Of a stretch of DNA of 32,454 nt, positions 19,354 to 32,454 are shown piece by piece. Position numbers and translations under genes: made by a program. Position 1 is the stretch's first letter; every line of letters begins with the position of its first letter. The notes under the pieces are model-generated. The model ran no database searches and was not told the origin of the DNA. It saw nothing but the letters and a program-made list of their open reading frames with translations. The stretch comes from Herpetosiphonaceae bacterium (GTDB taxonomy: Bacteria > Chloroflexota > Chloroflexia > Chloroflexales > Herpetosiphonaceae), in NCBI GenBank assembly GCA_013538855.1, contig JABXJS010000120.1, positions 1-32,454 of the forward strand, in the 5' to 3' direction.

Positions 19354-21015
19354 GTGTTTGCGCTACGCTTCAAACTGCGCACCCGCCTTATAACAGCGTT
19401 TCTGCTTGTTGCGCTGATTCCGATTTTTTTGCTTGAAATTATCAATATCCAGCAAACGCGCCGAGCGCTCACCCATTCCGCCGAAACAACGCTGCGCTCC
19501 GACGCGGCCCAGAGCGCCGCTGGCCTGGAGGCCTTCCTGCAGAACAATCTGGACTCGCTGCGCTCCGAGGCCCAAATCCCCGATCTCCAGCGCATGATGC
19601 TGCGGCGCGCTGCCGGTGCCGATGTCGATATTAATCTGGTGCGTGATGCGCAGGTGGTGCTGCGCGGCCTGGCCAACAAAGACGCGCTCAACATCATCTC
19701 GTATGCCATGCTCGATCAGAACGGCATCAACGTGGCCGACACCTACCCGCTCTACCTGGGGCAGGACGAGTCCACCACCAGCGCCTTCAAGCTGGCCCGC
19801 GACGGCAACCGCGCCAGCATGACGCCGGTTGAGTTCCAAGACGCCTCCGACGAGCCGATGATCACCTTCAGCAGCCCGATCCGCACCGACAACGGCCGCT
19901 TTCTCGGCGTGCTGCGCGTGCGCTACAAGGCGGCGGTGCTGCAGCAGCAGATAGTGCGCTCGACGCAGCAGGTTGGCGGCCAAGCCTTCGGCATGCTGTT
20001 CGACGAGTACGGGCTGCGCCTGGCCGACGGAGCCAACCCAGAGCTGCGCTTCACGCTCGTCGATCAACTCAACCAGATCGAGCAGTCCACGCTAACCGCC
20101 CAGGATCGCCTGCCGGTGATGCAGCCGCGCGTGCTCAATCTGCCACAGCTCGCCGCTGGCCTCAGCAGTGCCGTGCAGGACGACGCCTTTGTCGCCGTGA
20201 CCCGCGCCGATAGCCAGCGCCAGGATCAGGTGGCCGCGATCAAGCTGGAGACACAGCCGTGGACGCTGGCCTTCGCGATGCCGCGTTCGGCCTTCCTCGG
20301 GCCAATTCGCACCCAGACGCTGACCACGATCTTGTTTGCGCTCGTGATTGCAGCGCTCGTGCTCATCGCCGCCTGGTTCTTTGCGCGCCGCCTGCTGCGC
20401 CCGCTCGGTCAGCTCAACAGCGCGGCGACCCAGCTAGAGCAGGGCGACCTCAGCGCCCGCGCCAGCGTGATCAACAGCGACGAGATCGGCCAGCTGGCCC
20501 ACACCTTCAACACCATGGCCGAGCAGCTCCAGCAGACGGTCAGCTCGCTTGAGGAGCGCGTCGCCGAGCGCACCAGCGCGCTGCAGACGGCGCTCGATCA
20601 GCAGGCTCAGCAGGCCCAGCAGCTCCAGCAGGCGCTCGCCACCCAGCAGCAGCTCAACGAGCAGATCGCCAGCCTGGCCATGCCCGCCATCCCCGTGCGC
20701 CACGACACGGTGGTGGTGCCGCTCGTCGGCGTGATCGACCTCGACCAGCTGCACGCCGGGGCCACGCGGGTGCTGCAGATGATCAGCCAGCAGCGTATTC
20801 GCCACGTCGTGCTCGATGTCACCGGCGTCGCGGTCATCGACCCTGCTACCGCGCAGGCTGTCGTCACCATCGGCCGCACCCTGCGCCTGCTTGGCGCGGA
20901 TATGACCCTGGTGGGCGTGCGCCCAGAGATGGCCCAGACCCTCGTGACCATGCTCGACGACCTGAGCGACCTGCCGACCTACGCCACCCTCCAGCAGGCC
21001 CTGCGCCGCACCTAG
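19354..21015 (+). CDS. Membrane sensor with dCache, HAMP and STAS domains
   Basis: A 553-residue protein starting at GTG with AGGAG 9 nt upstream. A helix at 12-31, an extracellular sensor region of Cache/PAS type (about 40-310), a second helix at 323-344, a HAMP domain (345-398), a Gln-rich coiled coil (about 395-440, many QQ pairs) and a C-terminal STAS domain (about 448-550) follow in order. The STAS part resembles RsbR-type stressosome proteins (DVTGVAVIDPATAQAV, then GADMTLVGVRPEMAQTLV). RsbR-like proteins bind and release anti-sigma-factor kinases or RsbT. The residue after the conserved Asp496 is Pro497, where RsbR/SpoIIAA relatives usually carry the Thr/Ser that is phosphorylated. The protein is plausibly a transmembrane input unit for a partner-switching cascade, but no kinase or phosphatase gene is adjacent. 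Confidence 0.87.
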   Translation: MFALRFKLRTRLITAFLLVALIPIFLLEIINIQQTRRALTHSAETTLRSDAAQSAAGLEAFLQNNLDSLRSEAQIPDLQRMMLRRAAGADVDINLVRDAQVVLRGLANKDALNIISYAMLDQNGINVADTYPLYLGQDESTTSAFKLARDGNRASMTPVEFQDASDEPMITFSSPIRTDNGRFLGVLRVRYKAAVLQQQIVRSTQQVGGQAFGMLFDEYGLRLADGANPELRFTLVDQLNQIEQSTLTAQDRLPVMQPRVLNLPQLAAGLSSAVQDDAFVAVTRADSQRQDQVAAIKLETQPWTLAFAMPRSAFLGPIRTQTLTTILFALVIAALVLIAAWFFARRLLRPLGQLNSAATQLEQGDLSARASVINSDEIGQLAHTFNTMAEQLQQTVSSLEERVAERTSALQTALDQQAQQAQQLQQALATQQQLNEQIASLAMPAIPVRHDTVVVPLVGVIDLDQLHAGATRVLQMISQQRIRHVVLDVTGVAVIDPATAQAVVTIGRTLRLLGADMTLVGVRPEMAQTLVTMLDDLSDLPTYATLQQALRRT

Positions 21016-21872
21016 CCCCAGGCGTCGGCTGCGGCCCGCGCCAGCAGATCGGCCACACCTAGCTCCACAGCCCAGTCGCGTAGGTAGTCCAGATCAAGCC
21101 GCTCGCCCTGCACCTTCAGCAGCGCTAGCACATCGCGCCACTGCTGCGCGCCAACCGTACCAGCTTCAAGCTTGGCGAGCACGGTATCCTCAGGCGAGGC
21201 CACAAACGCCGCCTGCTCCGGCTCCAAAACAAGCGTCTCATATACACGTCGCTGAAACTGCGCCACAATAAACGGGCGTGGTGTGGGCACAAAAATATCG
21301 ACTTTAAACCCAGTGCCAAGGTGAATTAAATTAAATGCGGCGCGAAACGCTGGATCATGCGCGTAGGTTGCAGCATCAGCAATCGCGCTAAGAATATCCG
21401 TGAGTTGAACATAGAACTCTGCTTCTAAAGCCGCTACAAAGGGCTGCGCATGCGCAGCCGTGATCGTTGCCACAATATCTGTATCCCGTGTTGTGCGATA
21501 CTCACCATACACAATGCTTGCCAGCGATCCACCAATAAAGTACGGAATACTTAACGCATCAAGTACCTGAGTTACAGCGAGCGTCACACTGAGCGAATCA
21601 TCCACTATAGAACTCCTCTGACTATAGTTGCAGACTGCATGGAGCACCTGCTCAGACAGGTGTGCACCGAGCTTGATCGCGATCAAACGCTGTTGAACTT
21701 CTTGCAGTGTTGCCTCTGGATGGCGACGGCGAATGCCAACGCAGGCAAGCTGATCAGCAGAATGGTTGAGCCTTGTCGCCAACTCAACCTTGCGCCACAC
21801 TGGCATACGCGCAAGTATGGCCATCTCTACGGCCTCAGCCGCCGGTTTCGTATCACGCGCAAGCGTTACCAT
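21012..21872 (-). CDS. Nucleotidyltransferase fused to an upstream helical domain
   Basis: The ATG at 21872 is preceded by AAGGAG with 7 nt spacing and lies about 38 nt after an extended -10 element; the open frame up to 21950 begins upstream of that promoter and is not used. The 286-residue product has a helical N-terminal part (1-85, with WRKVELATRLN and GIRRRHPEATLQEVQQRL) and a nucleotidyltransferase-fold part (about 90-286). The latter shows Gly-Gly-Ser at 114-116 followed by RTTRDTDI with Asp130 and Asp132, the metal-binding pair of the Pol-beta superfamily (AbiEii/MNT-like group). Later segments NLIHLGTGFKVDIFVP and SPEDTVLAKLE are typical of a widespread family often encoded behind a separate small ORF resembling the N-terminal part here. 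GC content is visibly below the neighbours. The biological role is unknown; a toxin-antitoxin link is only a possibility. Confidence 0.72.
   Translation of the reverse strand: MVTLARDTKPAAEAVEMAILARMPVWRKVELATRLNHSADQLACVGIRRRHPEATLQEVQQRLIAIKLGAHLSEQVLHAVCNYSQRSSIVDDSLSVTLAVTQVLDALSIPYFIGGSLASIVYGEYRTTRDTDIVATITAAHAQPFVAALEAEFYVQLTDILSAIADAATYAHDPAFRAAFNLIHLGTGFKVDIFVPTPRPFIVAQFQRRVYETLVLEPEQAAFVASPEDTVLAKLEAGTVGAQQWRDVLALLKVQGERLDLDYLRDWAVELGVADLLARAAADAWG
21603..21619 (-). promoter_or_regulatory. Internal ribosome binding site and GTG start in the nucleotidyltransferase gene
   Basis: AGAGGAG (21619-21613) lies 7 nt before an in-frame GTG (21605-21603, Val90 of the long form), exactly where the nucleotidyltransferase domain begins. 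Initiation there would give a 197-residue stand-alone enzyme ending at 21012. No stop codon separates it from the upstream part. Confidence 0.6.
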
Positions 21873-21916
21873 AGACAGCTCCTTTAGCGCAGCTTCTGGT
21901 GTCAATAATGGGTAGC

Positions 21917-21925
21917 AGTATAGCA
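21917..21925 (-). promoter_or_regulatory. Extended -10 for the nucleotidyltransferase gene
   Basis: On the minus strand the bases read TGC-TATACT (TGC 21925-21923, hexamer 21922-21917), a five-of-six match to TATAAT. No clear -35 is seen. The implied start point lies upstream of the ATG at 21872. Confidence 0.5.
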
Positions 21926-21991
21926 GGCTTTCTTTCCAAACACGGTTCATGGCGCTAGCCGCATGACTTTGCTTTGTGGATGGACAAATTG

Positions 21992-25872: not shown

Positions 25873-25920
25873 TTGCGGTACCGAACCATCAGCGACAAAA
25901 CGACACAAGAGGGAATGTGT

Positions 25921-28900
25921 ATGTATAGGAAAGGTTTACGTACAGCAAGGTCCATGCGCCTTGCTGTGATGCTCATGCTCGTGATTGTTGGCCTGAATAT
26001 GGTGCCGCCGAATAGCCACCGCTGGCTATCAACAGTTCCGCTGCTCCAGGCTGCTGCGGCCAGCGCCGCTGAGCTGCCACCCAAGCGCACGCAGGAGCCA
26101 GCCAAGCGCGGCCAGCTGCGCTTCGCCCTTGAGATCGACAGCGACGGCCAGCCAGCAACAAACCCGGTTGCAGACACGCCAGTGCCCGTGACCAGGCTCA
26201 GCCAGACCGGCGTAGTGACCGATGTGCGCTACACCAGCGTTATCCTAGCCGTGGAGGTGCTGCCAGAGCACGACTGGGAGAACCCGGCCAACACCGACGT
26301 GCACTTTCGCATCTGGAACAGCGCGATCGGCCTTGATGTCAACCGCACCGTACAGGCCGATGCATGGGGCGCAGCCGCAACGGAGCTAAACCTAGCCCTA
26401 GATCAGCTCAGCGGCACCTTCGCCTATCAGGCCAGCAGCGCTGGCTTCGGCAGCACCGCAGTGCGCACCTTCACCATCGCCAGCGACAGCTTCAGCAGCG
26501 AGACGATCTACGACGCCGCAGCGGCCGCCTGGAGCAGCGCCGCCGACGGCCAGCTGACGCTCAGCATCACCTCGCCCACACCGCTCAACAGTAGCCCAGA
26601 CGCCGTTGAGTTCACCATCGTCAACCTTGACCAAAGCGCCGCCGAGCAGCTGGCGGGGCTATATCCAGCCCTCTTTGGAACAGCAGTCACGGCCCAGCGC
26701 GGGCAGGCGCAGGTCTACCTTGATGCAGGCGACTACATCATCATCGGCATTGCGCGCTCGGGCAGCGTCGAGCGGCACAGCCAGCCGCTACGGGTGCACA
26801 TTGAGCACACCGAAGCACCGCCGGTGGCGCGGGTTATCGCCATGCTGCCGCTCGATGAGCAGCGGGCGCTTGTCAACTATCGCACAGTTGACGATGCAGC
26901 GGCGATCATGGTGTTGGATCAGGCCACGCTGCCAGCTAGCCCGGCAGATGCGCCGGTGATCTTTCAGCAGAGCATACGCCAGGGGCCGTTCACACAGCGC
27001 ACGCTGACCTACGCCTACCAGCCTGCGGAGCATGCGGATGGGCAGCAGCTCATGCTCGATGCGCTACGCTATGATCCAATCAAGCGCCAATATGATCTCA
27101 CGCTGCGGCCGCACATCGACGTCGCGCGCAGCGACCAGCTGACGGTGCAGGTGATCGGCAACAATGGCGCAGTGGTGTTTGAAGAGCGCAGCGCGGTTGA
27201 GCTACAGCCCGACCAGCCATTCGACTACAGCATCAGCGTCCCACTTGAGGCGGGCGAGCCGCAGGGCCTGCGCTTCAGCACCACCGCCAGCGGCGGGCTA
27301 ACGGTGAGGAGCGCCGCTGGCACCTATGAGGATTCACAGGATGAAGGCGGAGGGATTATCAAAGGTCTGTTGACGAAGATAGGCGACGCCACAAAGAGCT
27401 TTTTTCTCGCCATTGGCGAAGGGGTCTACAGTAACTGGCACATTAGCGGCGGACTTTATTTTGTTACGGCCTTCAAAGCGCTGGAGATCAACCTAGCTAC
27501 ACTTGGCGTCCACTGCACAGTACCTGACATCGCATGCACCGCAGACCAACCATCGGGTTTATTTTTTTCACAAACGATTTGGGAAGCGACTGAAACCATC
27601 ATCGAAGGCATCCGCAAGTGGATCTTTATCAACTTTATACCAACCGCATCTATGGATGATTTCTTCGACTGGATCGGCGAAGATGGCATCCTGATGGGCA
27701 GCGGCATGGCGGGCTTCGGGGTTGAGATAGGTGCAACGAAAGTCTTATTCCACCCGAGCAAGTGCCCCGATCCAGCCGCTGAAGAGGCGGCCAGAGTCTA
27801 TGTTAAACACTTAGGCTTTCTCTTCGATGATGTAGCCGGCCTGCTCCAAAAGGCATTTGATGACGCAACAATCGGCAAGTTTGCTAAGCTTGTACAGGTG
27901 CCGATTGGTACAGTGTCCGAGTTTAATATCAAGCCTACTTTAGGGTTCAAGCTTAATACAGCGGCCAGTCCAAGTGATTACTCGATCTCGATCAGCCTAA
28001 AGACAGAGTACAGTTTAGAGGCTGGATTCTATGTTAAAGCAATCGGCGTTTTAGACATACCGTTTGCGATTTATCGTGGCTACCTTTTTATCATCCATAC
28101 CTACGACTACCTCAAGTTTGTACATACAAGCAGAACAATCTTTCAGCTTGCACACAAGGCGGCGCAGAAGGCCGAGGAAAACAACTGCAACCCGCCGCCG
28201 CCGCCCAGCCGCATGCCCGACGACCGCCGTGATGCGCTGGACGCCCAGCTCTGGGAGGCTCCAGAGGGCAACGACACGCTGAGCTACTATCGGGCGCAGA
28301 TCGCCGCTGCCGAGGCGCGCGGCCTTAGCCGCGCCAGCGTCTACTGGGAGCTAAAGCTGCGCCAGCAGGAGCTAAACAACTTCAACAGCGACTCACAGTG
28401 GGATCAGCGTTACGTTGAAGAGGCAAATCAGATCACCCAAGAAGCCACTCTGCATGCCCAAGGGCTGATCAGTAGCACCGTACCGATTTCGCCTGGTAGC
28501 ACCCTCACCGATGAGCTTGAGCTAACCTATAACCAGTTTGGTGACGCGCTTAACAACACCAGCTATGATCGTAAGCACCAGGAGCTGCAAAGCGCACTAG
28601 CGTTTGCCGAGCGGCGCTACAGCCAGCTGCGCGGCCAAGAGCTGGCGCTGCAGCACGAGCTGCGCGAGCTAGAGGCATCCAGCGGCCTTGGCGTCCTCGA
28701 CGCGGGGCTGGCGGTGGAGGCGATTCGCAGCATCCAGAGCTTTGGACTGGAGGTCACGCCGATTCGCATCGCCTATGGTCTCGGCGCAACCGGGCTGCCA
28801 AGCCGCTATGTCTCGCCCTACACGGCCCCGCCGGTGGTGGTGATCCCTAGCGGCGGCCTCTACCGCTTTCAGGAGAGCAAACAGGCCCAGCGCTGGCTAG

Positions 28901-31900
28901 AGACCTACGTTGCAGCCGGCGGCACGCTGATCGTGCTAGCCCAGGCCCATGGCAGCGACTGGCAGATGCTGCCTGGCGGCGAGGTGCGCGGCCTTGGCTA
29001 TGTTGAGGACATTCTCTGCCGTACGCAGTCGGTGCGCGTGGTTGGCCGCTCGCCGTGGACAGCGGGCATCAGCAGCGATCTGCCCGATATTCAGATCGAC
29101 GGCTCATTCACTGCGTGGCCCGCAAACGCCAGCGTCACCCTACTGCGCACCACCGGCAACCAGCTCCCAGCACTGATCGAGTACGCCTATGGCAATGGCC
29201 ACGTTGTGGCGATGAGCGCCTACCCTGATTTTGTGCTCAACGGCCTGCAAAGCCCCGACGACGTCGCCTTCGCTGGCAGCCTGTTCGCCCAGGGCTACCT
29301 TCAGGCCAGCGGCCAAGCGCCACAGCAGATCGTTGCGCCGGGCCAGCAGCTGGCGATCAACACAGCCCTGCGCAACAGCACCGCGACCAGCGCCACGCTG
29401 GCGACTGTGTGGAACAACTACTATGACTACCGCGCCGCCGCCAGCGCACGCTGGGCGCGTGAGATGCCGCTCGCGCTTGTGCGCAGCCGAGCGATCACGC
29501 TGACACCGGCGCTGGCCAGCGGCGAGAGCCGCAGCCTCGATCTCCAGGTTCAGGCCCCGGAGAAGGCGGGCATCTTCCGCCTCAACTACTACCTGGGCAC
29601 GCCGGACGAGTGGTCACGCTCGCTGGCCATCCCTGGGCCGCTGTACCAAGTGCAGCCCGTCGCCGGGCCACAGCCAACGCTGGAGTTTCAAGTTGCCAAG
29701 GATCAGAACAGCTACCTGTTTGGCAGCACGGCCACGCTTACAGCCACACTTATTAACCACGCCAGCAGCGCCCGCACGCTGGTGCTGCGCCCACAAGCAC
29801 CGCTAAGCACCCAGCCGCTCACCATAACCGTCGCCGCCGGAGCCAGCGCCACCAGCGTCTATACAACCGTGGTCAGCGCAGCAACCACGGTGCGCATCCG
29901 TGTCTATGAGCAGCAGACGCAGCTCACAGAGCAAGCGCAGACCCTACAGCTAGCACAGCCAGCGCTGGGGCTGAGCCTCACTCCCGAGCCACTGCTCAGC
30001 GGCCCGGCACAGACGATCACCGCCACCGCTGTCACGGTGGATATGCAGGCGCAGCAGCTCGACTGGCTTGTCAGCATTAACGCCCAGCCAGTGCTCAGCA
30101 GCACCACTGCGCTTAGCGCCAGCGTCGGCTATCAGCAGGGCCAGCTTAGCATCGTTCTGCCTGCACTGAGTGCAAACGCCGATCTGACGGTGCGCGCAGC
30201 GCTGCCCAGCAGTGGCGCCAGCATCGCCCGCACGATCACAGCCCAGGCACCAGTTGCAATCACAGCTGTTGACTTCACTACGCCGCTGCGGCTGGGCCAG
30301 CCAAACACCAGCGCGCTACAGGTGCAAATCAGCGATCACGGCCACAGCGGCAGCGGGGCCATCCAGACGATCATCCGCGCCAGCGATGCGACCAGTGTCA
30401 TCACTGGTCCGCTGCAGCCGCTCAGCCTTGGTGTGGGCCAGCAGAGCCTCGCGCTTAACCTAGCGCTGCCCAGCCTGTGGAGCCAGCAGCTCAACTACAC
30501 GCTGGAGATCAGCGGCTCAGGCACCCTCAGCAATGGGCAGCCATGGTCGCTGCTGTTCGCACGGCGCATGCCAGTGCTGCGCTCAAGCTTACGGCTGACC
30601 ACCGAGCGCAGCGCAGCCGGACGACCGCTGAGCCTTACCAGCGAGCTTGCCGTCGGGCAGCTGGGTCTCAACCTAGACGGCAGCTACAGCCTACAGCTCA
30701 GCAGCAGCACCTTCAGCACTACGCTGCCAGTGAGCGCCAGCGGCAGCGCGAGCCAGCTGCTGCTCAGCACCACGCTGCCCAGCAGCCTCCAGCCTGGCGC
30801 GTACTACCTGACGCTCACGAGTGCGCAGCTCTCAGGATGGCAGCAGCAGCTGGGGCTATGGATCAATGGGCCACAGCTGCACTTTAGCGTGCCCGAGACC
30901 GCCACGGCCGCCACACCGCTGGCTATCGGCATCGTCAACCGCGGTGGTGTCGCTGGCGGTCTGCAGGGCACGCTCACGCTCTACTCGCCAGAGAATCGGC
31001 CGATTCAAGCGCAGCCAATCTCGCTGAGCCTAGCGCTCGACGCTGCGGTGAGTGTGCCGCTCACGCTGACCTTCTCCAGCGGGATTGGGCTGTACGCGCT
31101 GGAGCTAACGGCGCGCGACAATCGTAACGGACGCTTCTACAGCGAGCGCTGGCCCATCCAGCTCAGCGGCTCGATCCAGATGCAGACGACGACCGAGCAT
31201 CCAACCTATATGCCTGGGGCTGTCGTCACCAGCACCACTATCATTACCACCGATCAATACCTTGACCAGGCTTGGCTGCGGCTGCGAACTATCCGTCCAT
31301 CCATCCAGCAAGACTTGACACCAACGCTGCTCGTTGGCACACCATATGGAGCGGTTGGGCCAAGCGAATTTACCCGCCTCGCTGGTATACAGGCAGCGAT
31401 CAGTCCTGACAGCAGCTTTGCAATTATTGGACGGGCCAAGGTTGACCTAAGCACCAACGACAGCACACGCTTTGAGCCATATGGCGAGAGCCTGCCATCA
31501 ACGCTGAACCTGCGTGATATTGCGATCAGCAACGACCAGCGCTGGGCTTTGATGGTCAGCATAGAGCAACCAGTCATCTACCGGGTTGATCTAGAGACGA
31601 TGCATACAAGTATTGTGGCTGGCGCAACCAATCAGCGTGGCGATCAAGATGGTCTCGGCCAACAAGCGCGCTTCACATATCCCTCCAGCATCGAGCTTAG
31701 TCCCGACAACAGCTATGCGCTTGTGCTAGAGAGCACGCTGCCAGCGCGGATGCGCCGCATCGATCTCGCCAACGGTGCCGTGACCACAGTGGGCAGCATC
31801 CCCCAGTTAACAGATATCATTGGCAACTACAACACCTCTATAGCCATGCGGCCAGGAACCACAGTCACATATATTAGCGACTGCCATGGGGCACAAATTC

Positions 31901-32454
31901 TTAGCATCGAGCTCAGTGGCACAGTCGCAGTTGTGGCCGGCGGCAATGGGCGGGGGCATCTTGATGGACTAGGCAGCCAAGCCCAGTTTAGCTGCCCTGG
32001 CAACATCGCGTTTACGCCAAGTGGCACGCTGCTCATCGCTGATCAGGACACGATTCGGCAGATCGATGACTTTACCGCTGGCACTGTCACCACGGTCTAT
32101 GGCAGCTACAATCAGCATGAATTTCAAGATGGCGTGGGCACAAGTGCCCACTTCTCCTCTATCTATGGATTTGATATTGCCCAGAGCGGCGCATTTGCCA
32201 TCGTCAACGACAAGGATGTTGGCCGCCGCATCAACCTAGCAACCCATGAGGTGCAGACCATTTTGGGCATTCCATACCTTGAAGCCGACGGTGGCGTTGG
32301 CCGTGCCACCCGGCTCTACATGGATTTTCTCAACATCAGCCCAGATGAATCGTTTGCCATCATCAGTAGATCACAGGATTGGCTCGGGTGGCGTGTAGGG
32401 TCGGTACGGTGCGAGCGGGATAGCCCGAACCATGCCGTAGATGGCCGTTACGGC
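25921..32454 (+). CDS. Giant secreted multidomain protein, 3' end outside the window
   Basis: I translated this frame codon by codon: 2178 codons with no stop up to the window edge, so the protein is longer. The ATG at 25921 has AGAGGG 7 nt upstream; an ATG at 25915 is also in frame. A signal peptide covers about 1-50. Then: a beta-rich region (60-460); a segment of lower GC with hydrophobic and Lys-rich stretches (about 475-755); a Pro5 hinge near 758-762; a helical, Glu/Gln/Arg-rich region (770-920); an alpha/beta segment resembling a class I glutamine-amidotransferase-like fold (about 925-1125; LETYVAAGGTLIVLAQAHG, then YGNGHVVAMSAYPDF) without a nucleophile Cys in the elbow; many Ser/Thr/Gln-rich beta-sandwich repeats (about 1130-1800); and NHL-like propeller repeats (about 1810 onward; DGLGxxAxF and TVTTV motifs recur). 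Likely extracellular; function unknown. Confidence 0.88.
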   Translation, partial: MYRKGLRTARSMRLAVMLMLVIVGLNMVPPNSHRWLSTVPLLQAAAASAAELPPKRTQEPAKRGQLRFALEIDSDGQPATNPVADTPVPVTRLSQTGVVTDVRYTSVILAVEVLPEHDWENPANTDVHFRIWNSAIGLDVNRTVQADAWGAAATELNLALDQLSGTFAYQASSAGFGSTAVRTFTIASDSFSSETIYDAAAAAWSSAADGQLTLSITSPTPLNSSPDAVEFTIVNLDQSAAEQLAGLYPALFGTAVTAQRGQAQVYLDAGDYIIIGIARSGSVERHSQPLRVHIEHTEAPPVARVIAMLPLDEQRALVNYRTVDDAAAIMVLDQATLPASPADAPVIFQQSIRQGPFTQRTLTYAYQPAEHADGQQLMLDALRYDPIKRQYDLTLRPHIDVARSDQLTVQVIGNNGAVVFEERSAVELQPDQPFDYSISVPLEAGEPQGLRFSTTASGGLTVRSAAGTYEDSQDEGGGIIKGLLTKIGDATKSFFLAIGEGVYSNWHISGGLYFVTAFKALEINLATLGVHCTVPDIACTADQPSGLFFSQTIWEATETIIEGIRKWIFINFIPTASMDDFFDWIGEDGILMGSGMAGFGVEIGATKVLFHPSKCPDPAAEEAARVYVKHLGFLFDDVAGLLQKAFDDATIGKFAKLVQVPIGTVSEFNIKPTLGFKLNTAASPSDYSISISLKTEYSLEAGFYVKAIGVLDIPFAIYRGYLFIIHTYDYLKFVHTSRTIFQLAHKAAQKAEENNCNPPPPPSRMPDDRRDALDAQLWEAPEGNDTLSYYRAQIAAAEARGLSRASVYWELKLRQQELNNFNSDSQWDQRYVEEANQITQEATLHAQGLISSTVPISPGSTLTDELELTYNQFGDALNNTSYDRKHQELQSALAFAERRYSQLRGQELALQHELRELEASSGLGVLDAGLAVEAIRSIQSFGLEVTPIRIAYGLGATGLPSRYVSPYTAPPVVVIPSGGLYRFQESKQAQRWLETYVAAGGTLIVLAQAHGSDWQMLPGGEVRGLGYVEDILCRTQSVRVVGRSPWTAGISSDLPDIQIDGSFTAWPANASVTLLRTTGNQLPALIEYAYGNGHVVAMSAYPDFVLNGLQSPDDVAFAGSLFAQGYLQASGQAPQQIVAPGQQLAINTALRNSTATSATLATVWNNYYDYRAAASARWAREMPLALVRSRAITLTPALASGESRSLDLQVQAPEKAGIFRLNYYLGTPDEWSRSLAIPGPLYQVQPVAGPQPTLEFQVAKDQNSYLFGSTATLTATLINHASSARTLVLRPQAPLSTQPLTITVAAGASATSVYTTVVSAATTVRIRVYEQQTQLTEQAQTLQLAQPALGLSLTPEPLLSGPAQTITATAVTVDMQAQQLDWLVSINAQPVLSSTTALSASVGYQQGQLSIVLPALSANADLTVRAALPSSGASIARTITAQAPVAITAVDFTTPLRLGQPNTSALQVQISDHGHSGSGAIQTIIRASDATSVITGPLQPLSLGVGQQSLALNLALPSLWSQQLNYTLEISGSGTLSNGQPWSLLFARRMPVLRSSLRLTTERSAAGRPLSLTSELAVGQLGLNLDGSYSLQLSSSTFSTTLPVSASGSASQLLLSTTLPSSLQPGAYYLTLTSAQLSGWQQQLGLWINGPQLHFSVPETATAATPLAIGIVNRGGVAGGLQGTLTLYSPENRPIQAQPISLSLALDAAVSVPLTLTFSSGIGLYALELTARDNRNGRFYSERWPIQLSGSIQMQTTTEHPTYMPGAVVTSTTIITTDQYLDQAWLRLRTIRPSIQQDLTPTLLVGTPYGAVGPSEFTRLAGIQAAISPDSSFAIIGRAKVDLSTNDSTRFEPYGESLPSTLNLRDIAISNDQRWALMVSIEQPVIYRVDLETMHTSIVAGATNQRGDQDGLGQQARFTYPSSIELSPDNSYALVLESTLPARMRRIDLANGAVTTVGSIPQLTDIIGNYNTSIAMRPGTTVTYISDCHGAQILSIELSGTVAVVAGGNGRGHLDGLGSQAQFSCPGNIAFTPSGTLLIADQDTIRQIDDFTAGTVTTVYGSYNQHEFQDGVGTSAHFSSIYGFDIAQSGAFAIVNDKDVGRRINLATHEVQTILGIPYLEADGGVGRATRLYMDFLNISPDESFAIISRSQDWLGWRVGSVRCERDSPNHAVDGRYG

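Follow-up and report, generated by a model that had tools for sequence, protein, structure and literature searches.

Bacteria often possess giant surface proteins of mosaic build, the majority of whose parts still lack a name; a further orphan module in such a protein is, taken by itself, an ordinary find. The protein considered here, P0001 of a Herpetosiphonaceae bacterium (Chloroflexota), can be compared with two described groups. The first comprises proteins with NHL repeats (PF01436) or NHL repeats of the teneurin type (PF25021). The NHL repeats of a paralogue can be aligned with the tail of P0001, although the repeats of P0001 itself are too diverged for the Pfam cut-offs and its module of low GC content lies outside them. 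The second is the lipase class 3/alpha-beta hydrolase family (PF01764), to which a domain in the relatives of P0001 is similar; that domain stands at the position of the low-GC module relative to a shared linker, whereas the module itself carries neither the GHSQG motif nor profile similarity to that domain. A search of the literature found no paper that pairs intragenic composition with domain acquisition in those terms.

The giant protein and its scaffold relatives

The window, that is, the whole stretch of DNA analysed, is a complete contig (C53) of 32,454 bases from a 6.3 Mb draft genome of 285 contigs, which is 100% complete with a contamination of 0.3%. P0001 and its parts are laid out in it as follows.

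25921..32454, + strand: giant ORF P0001, in a TTG-initiated frame that runs from 25873 and is open at the contig end
26053..27315, + strand: N-terminal domain (about residues 61-481, 420 residues), normal GC3 of 0.76
27316..28152, + strand: low-GC module, residues 482-760, GC 48%, GC3 0.54
28153..28287, + strand: Cys-Pro-rich linker (NNCNPPPPPSRMPDD), normal GC, aligning with the CPAPPPPAPVPPPQGSPDD linker of the paralogue
28288..28810, + strand: poorly conserved region, its layout common to the paralogue by alignment, presumed helical from its sequence
28811..29592, + strand: best-conserved part of the scaffold, a domain of about residues 980-1240 with 35-41% identity to the paralogue and the paralogue's orthologue
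29593..31197, + strand: Ser/Thr/Gln/Leu-rich beta-type region, normal GC3 of 0.78
31198..32362, + strand: second low-GC3 segment, comprising the scaffold end and an NHL-repeat-like tail, GC3 0.60
32363..32454, + strand: end of a high-copy repeated element, which cuts the P0001 ORF

The start of P0001 is likely the ATG at 25915 or 25921, which follows AAGAGGGA and has a purine-rich site upstream. Residues 27-45 are hydrophobic and signal-like, and P0001 is probably a secreted-type giant protein, its export and surface display being predicted from sequence features of this kind. The N-terminal domain of normal GC (residues 1-481 when counted from the start of the protein) is as much an orphan as the low-GC module that follows it, with no match in Pfam. 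Its weak matches in the phylum turned out to be due to chance and to sit in acidic low-complexity, ribosomal-S1-like, peptidase-like or unrelated proteins. For the most conserved scaffold domain, no family was found in Pfam or the PDB.

Only two relatives of P0001 with the central scaffold were found, namely the paralogue P0002 in the same genome (contig C62, at least 2754 aa) and P0003, the orthologue of P0002, in the Herpetosiphonaceae MAG MGR_bin20 (G003, JACCRK010000290.1). P0002 and P0003 are orthologous to each other along the compared length, with 51% identity overall. Like P0001, both possess a signal-type N-terminus, a Cys-Pro-rich linker, a helical region, Ig-like stretches and an NHL-repeat tail, and they share with it a conserved core of 35-41% identity over about 270-390 aa; a profile match of the linker covers 28177-28287 (E 4e-8). 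They are unlike P0001 in the slot before the linker, which in both relatives holds a lipase-3-like domain with a GHSQGG motif (Lipase_3, E 0.008, below the cut-off) and in P0001 is filled by the domain of residues 1-481 together with the low-GC module. In fact, P0001 differs completely from both proteins upstream of the linker. The low-GC module is missing from P0002 and P0003 alike, in a comparison that sets P0001 against a paralogue and that paralogue's orthologue rather than against its own orthologues, of which searches of the genome and the family found none.

In both genomes, the lipase-like scaffold gene lies beside a gene for a second giant protein of at least 2500 residues (L032 8390-15961 and L033 5402-13984), which contains many NHL-type GDGGPA repeats. 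The gene pair looks conserved as neighbours.

A compositional step at domain edges

Residues 482-760 of P0001 constitute a sharp, compositionally distinct in-frame module within a surface-type protein. The earlier note had drawn attention to this part of the gene with a hand count of 129 G/C in the 300 bases of 27841-28140, and the recount gave exactly that figure (43.0% GC); over 27361-28150, GC is 47.7%. A two-state segmentation of the P0001 ORF, based on synonymous codon choice alone, assigned codons 1-481 (GC3 0.76) and 761-1775 (0.78) to the native state and codons 482-760 (0.54) and 1776-2163 (0.60) to the low state. The first of the low segments, 27316-28152, spans 279 codons with an LLR of +32. 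The dip had been placed at about residues 480-743; it is real, and by segmentation its edges lie at 482 and 760. The two states change sharply between codons 481 and 482 and between codons 760 and 761, and both edges coincide with domain boundaries, in frame. With amino acid content controlled for, GC3 of the segment is 0.53 versus an expected 0.745 (z = -9.8), and only 1.45% of the 280-codon windows in a 345 kb sample of the bacterium's own genome are equally low.

The enrichment of TTA and ATA codons described in the earlier note was borne out by the counts, six TTA and four ATA among the 279 codons of the segment versus two of each among 1480 flanking codons. Lys makes up 5.7% of the encoded residues (0.7-0.9% in the flanks), Phe 8.2% (1.8-2.8%) and Ile 10% (4-5%). 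The module had been characterised as hydrophobic and Lys-rich, of which the first part is correct (GRAVY +0.29 versus about -0.1 in the flanks), whereas the second holds merely relative to flanks that are poor in Lys, the net charge of the module being -11.

No relatives of the module were found in Pfam, NCBIfam, PHROGs, PADLOC or PDB sequences, nor in the GTDB contigs of close relatives, viral contigs, phages or plasmids, and neither of two overlapping genome sets, 158 from the class and 400 from the phylum, yielded a copy. AlphaFold models of the module, made without relatives, reached pLDDT values of 39 and 47 and hint, with low confidence, at a fold that mixes long helices with paired hairpin strands. 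The module contains cysteines at residues 548, 555 and 631, and a fourth lies at residue 772 in the adjacent linker; these four would suit an extracellular domain. The best matches in the phylum (G285 and G481, E 0.003-0.006) fall inside dihydropteroate synthase genes and are due to chance. As a diverged version of the lipase-like domain, the module received an hhalign probability of 0.1%, and the characteristic motif is missing. As to a possible polymorphic toxin with exchangeable modules, which would have a known toxin or immunity domain and an immunity gene nearby, the module had no match in Pfam, NCBIfam or PADLOC, and the downstream neighbour of the gene is lost at the contig end.

Origin of the module

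The earlier note had proposed that a domain from another source was spliced into a surface protein. The splicing half of this proposal agrees well with a distinct in-frame module whose edges are domain boundaries and which is missing from both relatives; the foreign source is plausible, with neither a donor nor a relative of the module detected. The reading that we consider most likely, and hold tentatively, is that a lineage-specific module of about 280 residues was joined in frame into a secreted scaffold, at an N-terminal slot whose content varies. Its observed basis consists of the compositional step, the coincidence of that step with domain edges, slot content that differs in two relatives and the lack of detectable homologues. 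We propose that recombination at domain-linker boundaries would have placed the module in the N-terminal half of the scaffold, in the slot just before the Cys-Pro-rich linker. The history of the module would then differ from that of the scaffold, the module being either foreign or placed there later, and because of this different history its codons would fall short of the GC-rich third positions of the host. The slot and the export signal suggest that the module may serve as an exchangeable business end, binding or enzymatic, on a common scaffold. In an extended version of this idea, which seems unlikely to us, a new family of extracellular domains would be exchanged for the lipase-like domain at one fixed site of a surface scaffold of the Herpetosiphonaceae, a common secreted body that takes cassette-like N-terminal modules. 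Should further genomes show the slot to be a site of swapping, it would offer a tractable case of modules being exchanged on the surface scaffold of a bacterium.

Against a joined module stand the failure to find a donor or homologue, the adjacent N-terminal domain, an orphan with normal GC, the NHL tail, which is GC-poor though collinear with a paralogue of normal GC, and the lipase-like domain, whose composition differs between P0002 and P0003 while the domain stays the same. In addition, GC3 of the segment (0.54) equals the GC of intergenic DNA in this genome (0.533), and such a value needs no donor. Because intergenic GC is 53%, a GC3 of 0.54 is the level that an unselected stretch would reach. 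This equality favours the reading that ranks a close second, which we regard as a serious possibility: the module would be a native domain with a local loss of codon bias, its synonymous sites having drifted towards the mutational equilibrium (about 53% GC) under selection or GC-biased repair that is locally weak, and its relatives being absent because of fast evolution.

Comparisons within the family and the genome also bear on the native-domain reading. The second low-GC3 segment of P0001 (31198-32361, codons 1776-2163), overlooked by the earlier note, is homologous to and collinear with scaffold sequence of normal GC in P0002. The tail that it encodes aligns with the repeats of P0002 at 35% identity (E 5e-20); these are recognised as NHL repeats (E 1e-18), and the tail of P0001 itself scores against TEN_NHL at E 0.19, below the gathering cut-off. 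A similar loss is seen within a conserved domain of P0003 (L033:1-5343, contig C118 of G003), where the lipase-like domain and the helical region that follows it have a GC3 of 0.18-0.62 and the remainder of the protein about 0.68-0.90. The lipase-like domain alone has a GC3 of 0.18-0.55 versus about 0.78 in the orthologous domain of P0002, in which GC3 is normal throughout. The P0001 genome has further long ORFs whose composition switches internally, the clearest comparable case being a 2776-codon ORF of contig C13 (L053:134-8461) with a low-GC3 internal segment at codons 273-564; this ORF carries PKD and Big_1/invasin-type domains and is adhesin-like.

Since the second low-GC3 segment of P0001 has a collinear counterpart of normal GC in the paralogue, and since the lipase-like domain is GC-poor in P0003 and normal in P0002, low GC alone is not a marker of foreign DNA here. 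The useful caution lies in this: codon composition switches domain by domain in one small protein family, and because it does so even between homologous domains, a fall in GC within a gene argues only weakly for a foreign source. What tells against a native domain is that the edges of the module are abrupt and fall at domain boundaries, that its N-terminal neighbour, equally devoid of relatives, keeps a normal GC3 of 0.76, and that the slot holds another domain in the relatives. These features speak for a separate history of the module.

A third reading, that a new domain arose de novo or from captured DNA when a non-coding stretch, intergenic or mobile, was read through in frame, is in our view improbable. 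It would fit the match of the module to intergenic GC, the failure to find a homologue wherever one was sought and the abundance of mobile elements in the genome, but 279 stop-free, well-organised codons with regular helices and paired hairpin strands, both predicted with low confidence, and four cysteines, including that of the linker, look more like an old protein domain than like random translated DNA. An assembly chimera, a frameshift or a chance fluctuation can hardly be the cause, for although the genome is a draft of 285 contigs and a repeat closes the one considered here, a single uninterrupted frame passes through both edges, the deviation is far beyond chance, contamination is as low as 0.3%, and the edges lie at domain boundaries and not at a repeat.

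Other features of the window

The ORF of P0001 is interrupted at 32363 by a repeated (mobile) element that breaks the assembly. The last 92 bases of the contig (32363-32454, beginning TCAGTAGATCACAGGATTGGCTCGGG) are the end of this element and recur identically at no fewer than 40 places among those listed, each with different flanks, all copies touching a contig end or lying only a few bases from one. Because the element breaks the assembly, its copy number is probably very high. Elsewhere in the window, a minus-strand ORF of 312 aa at 21012-21950 has a GC3 of 0.50 and is possibly an acquired gene; its product presumably resembles an AbiEii-type nucleotidyltransferase.
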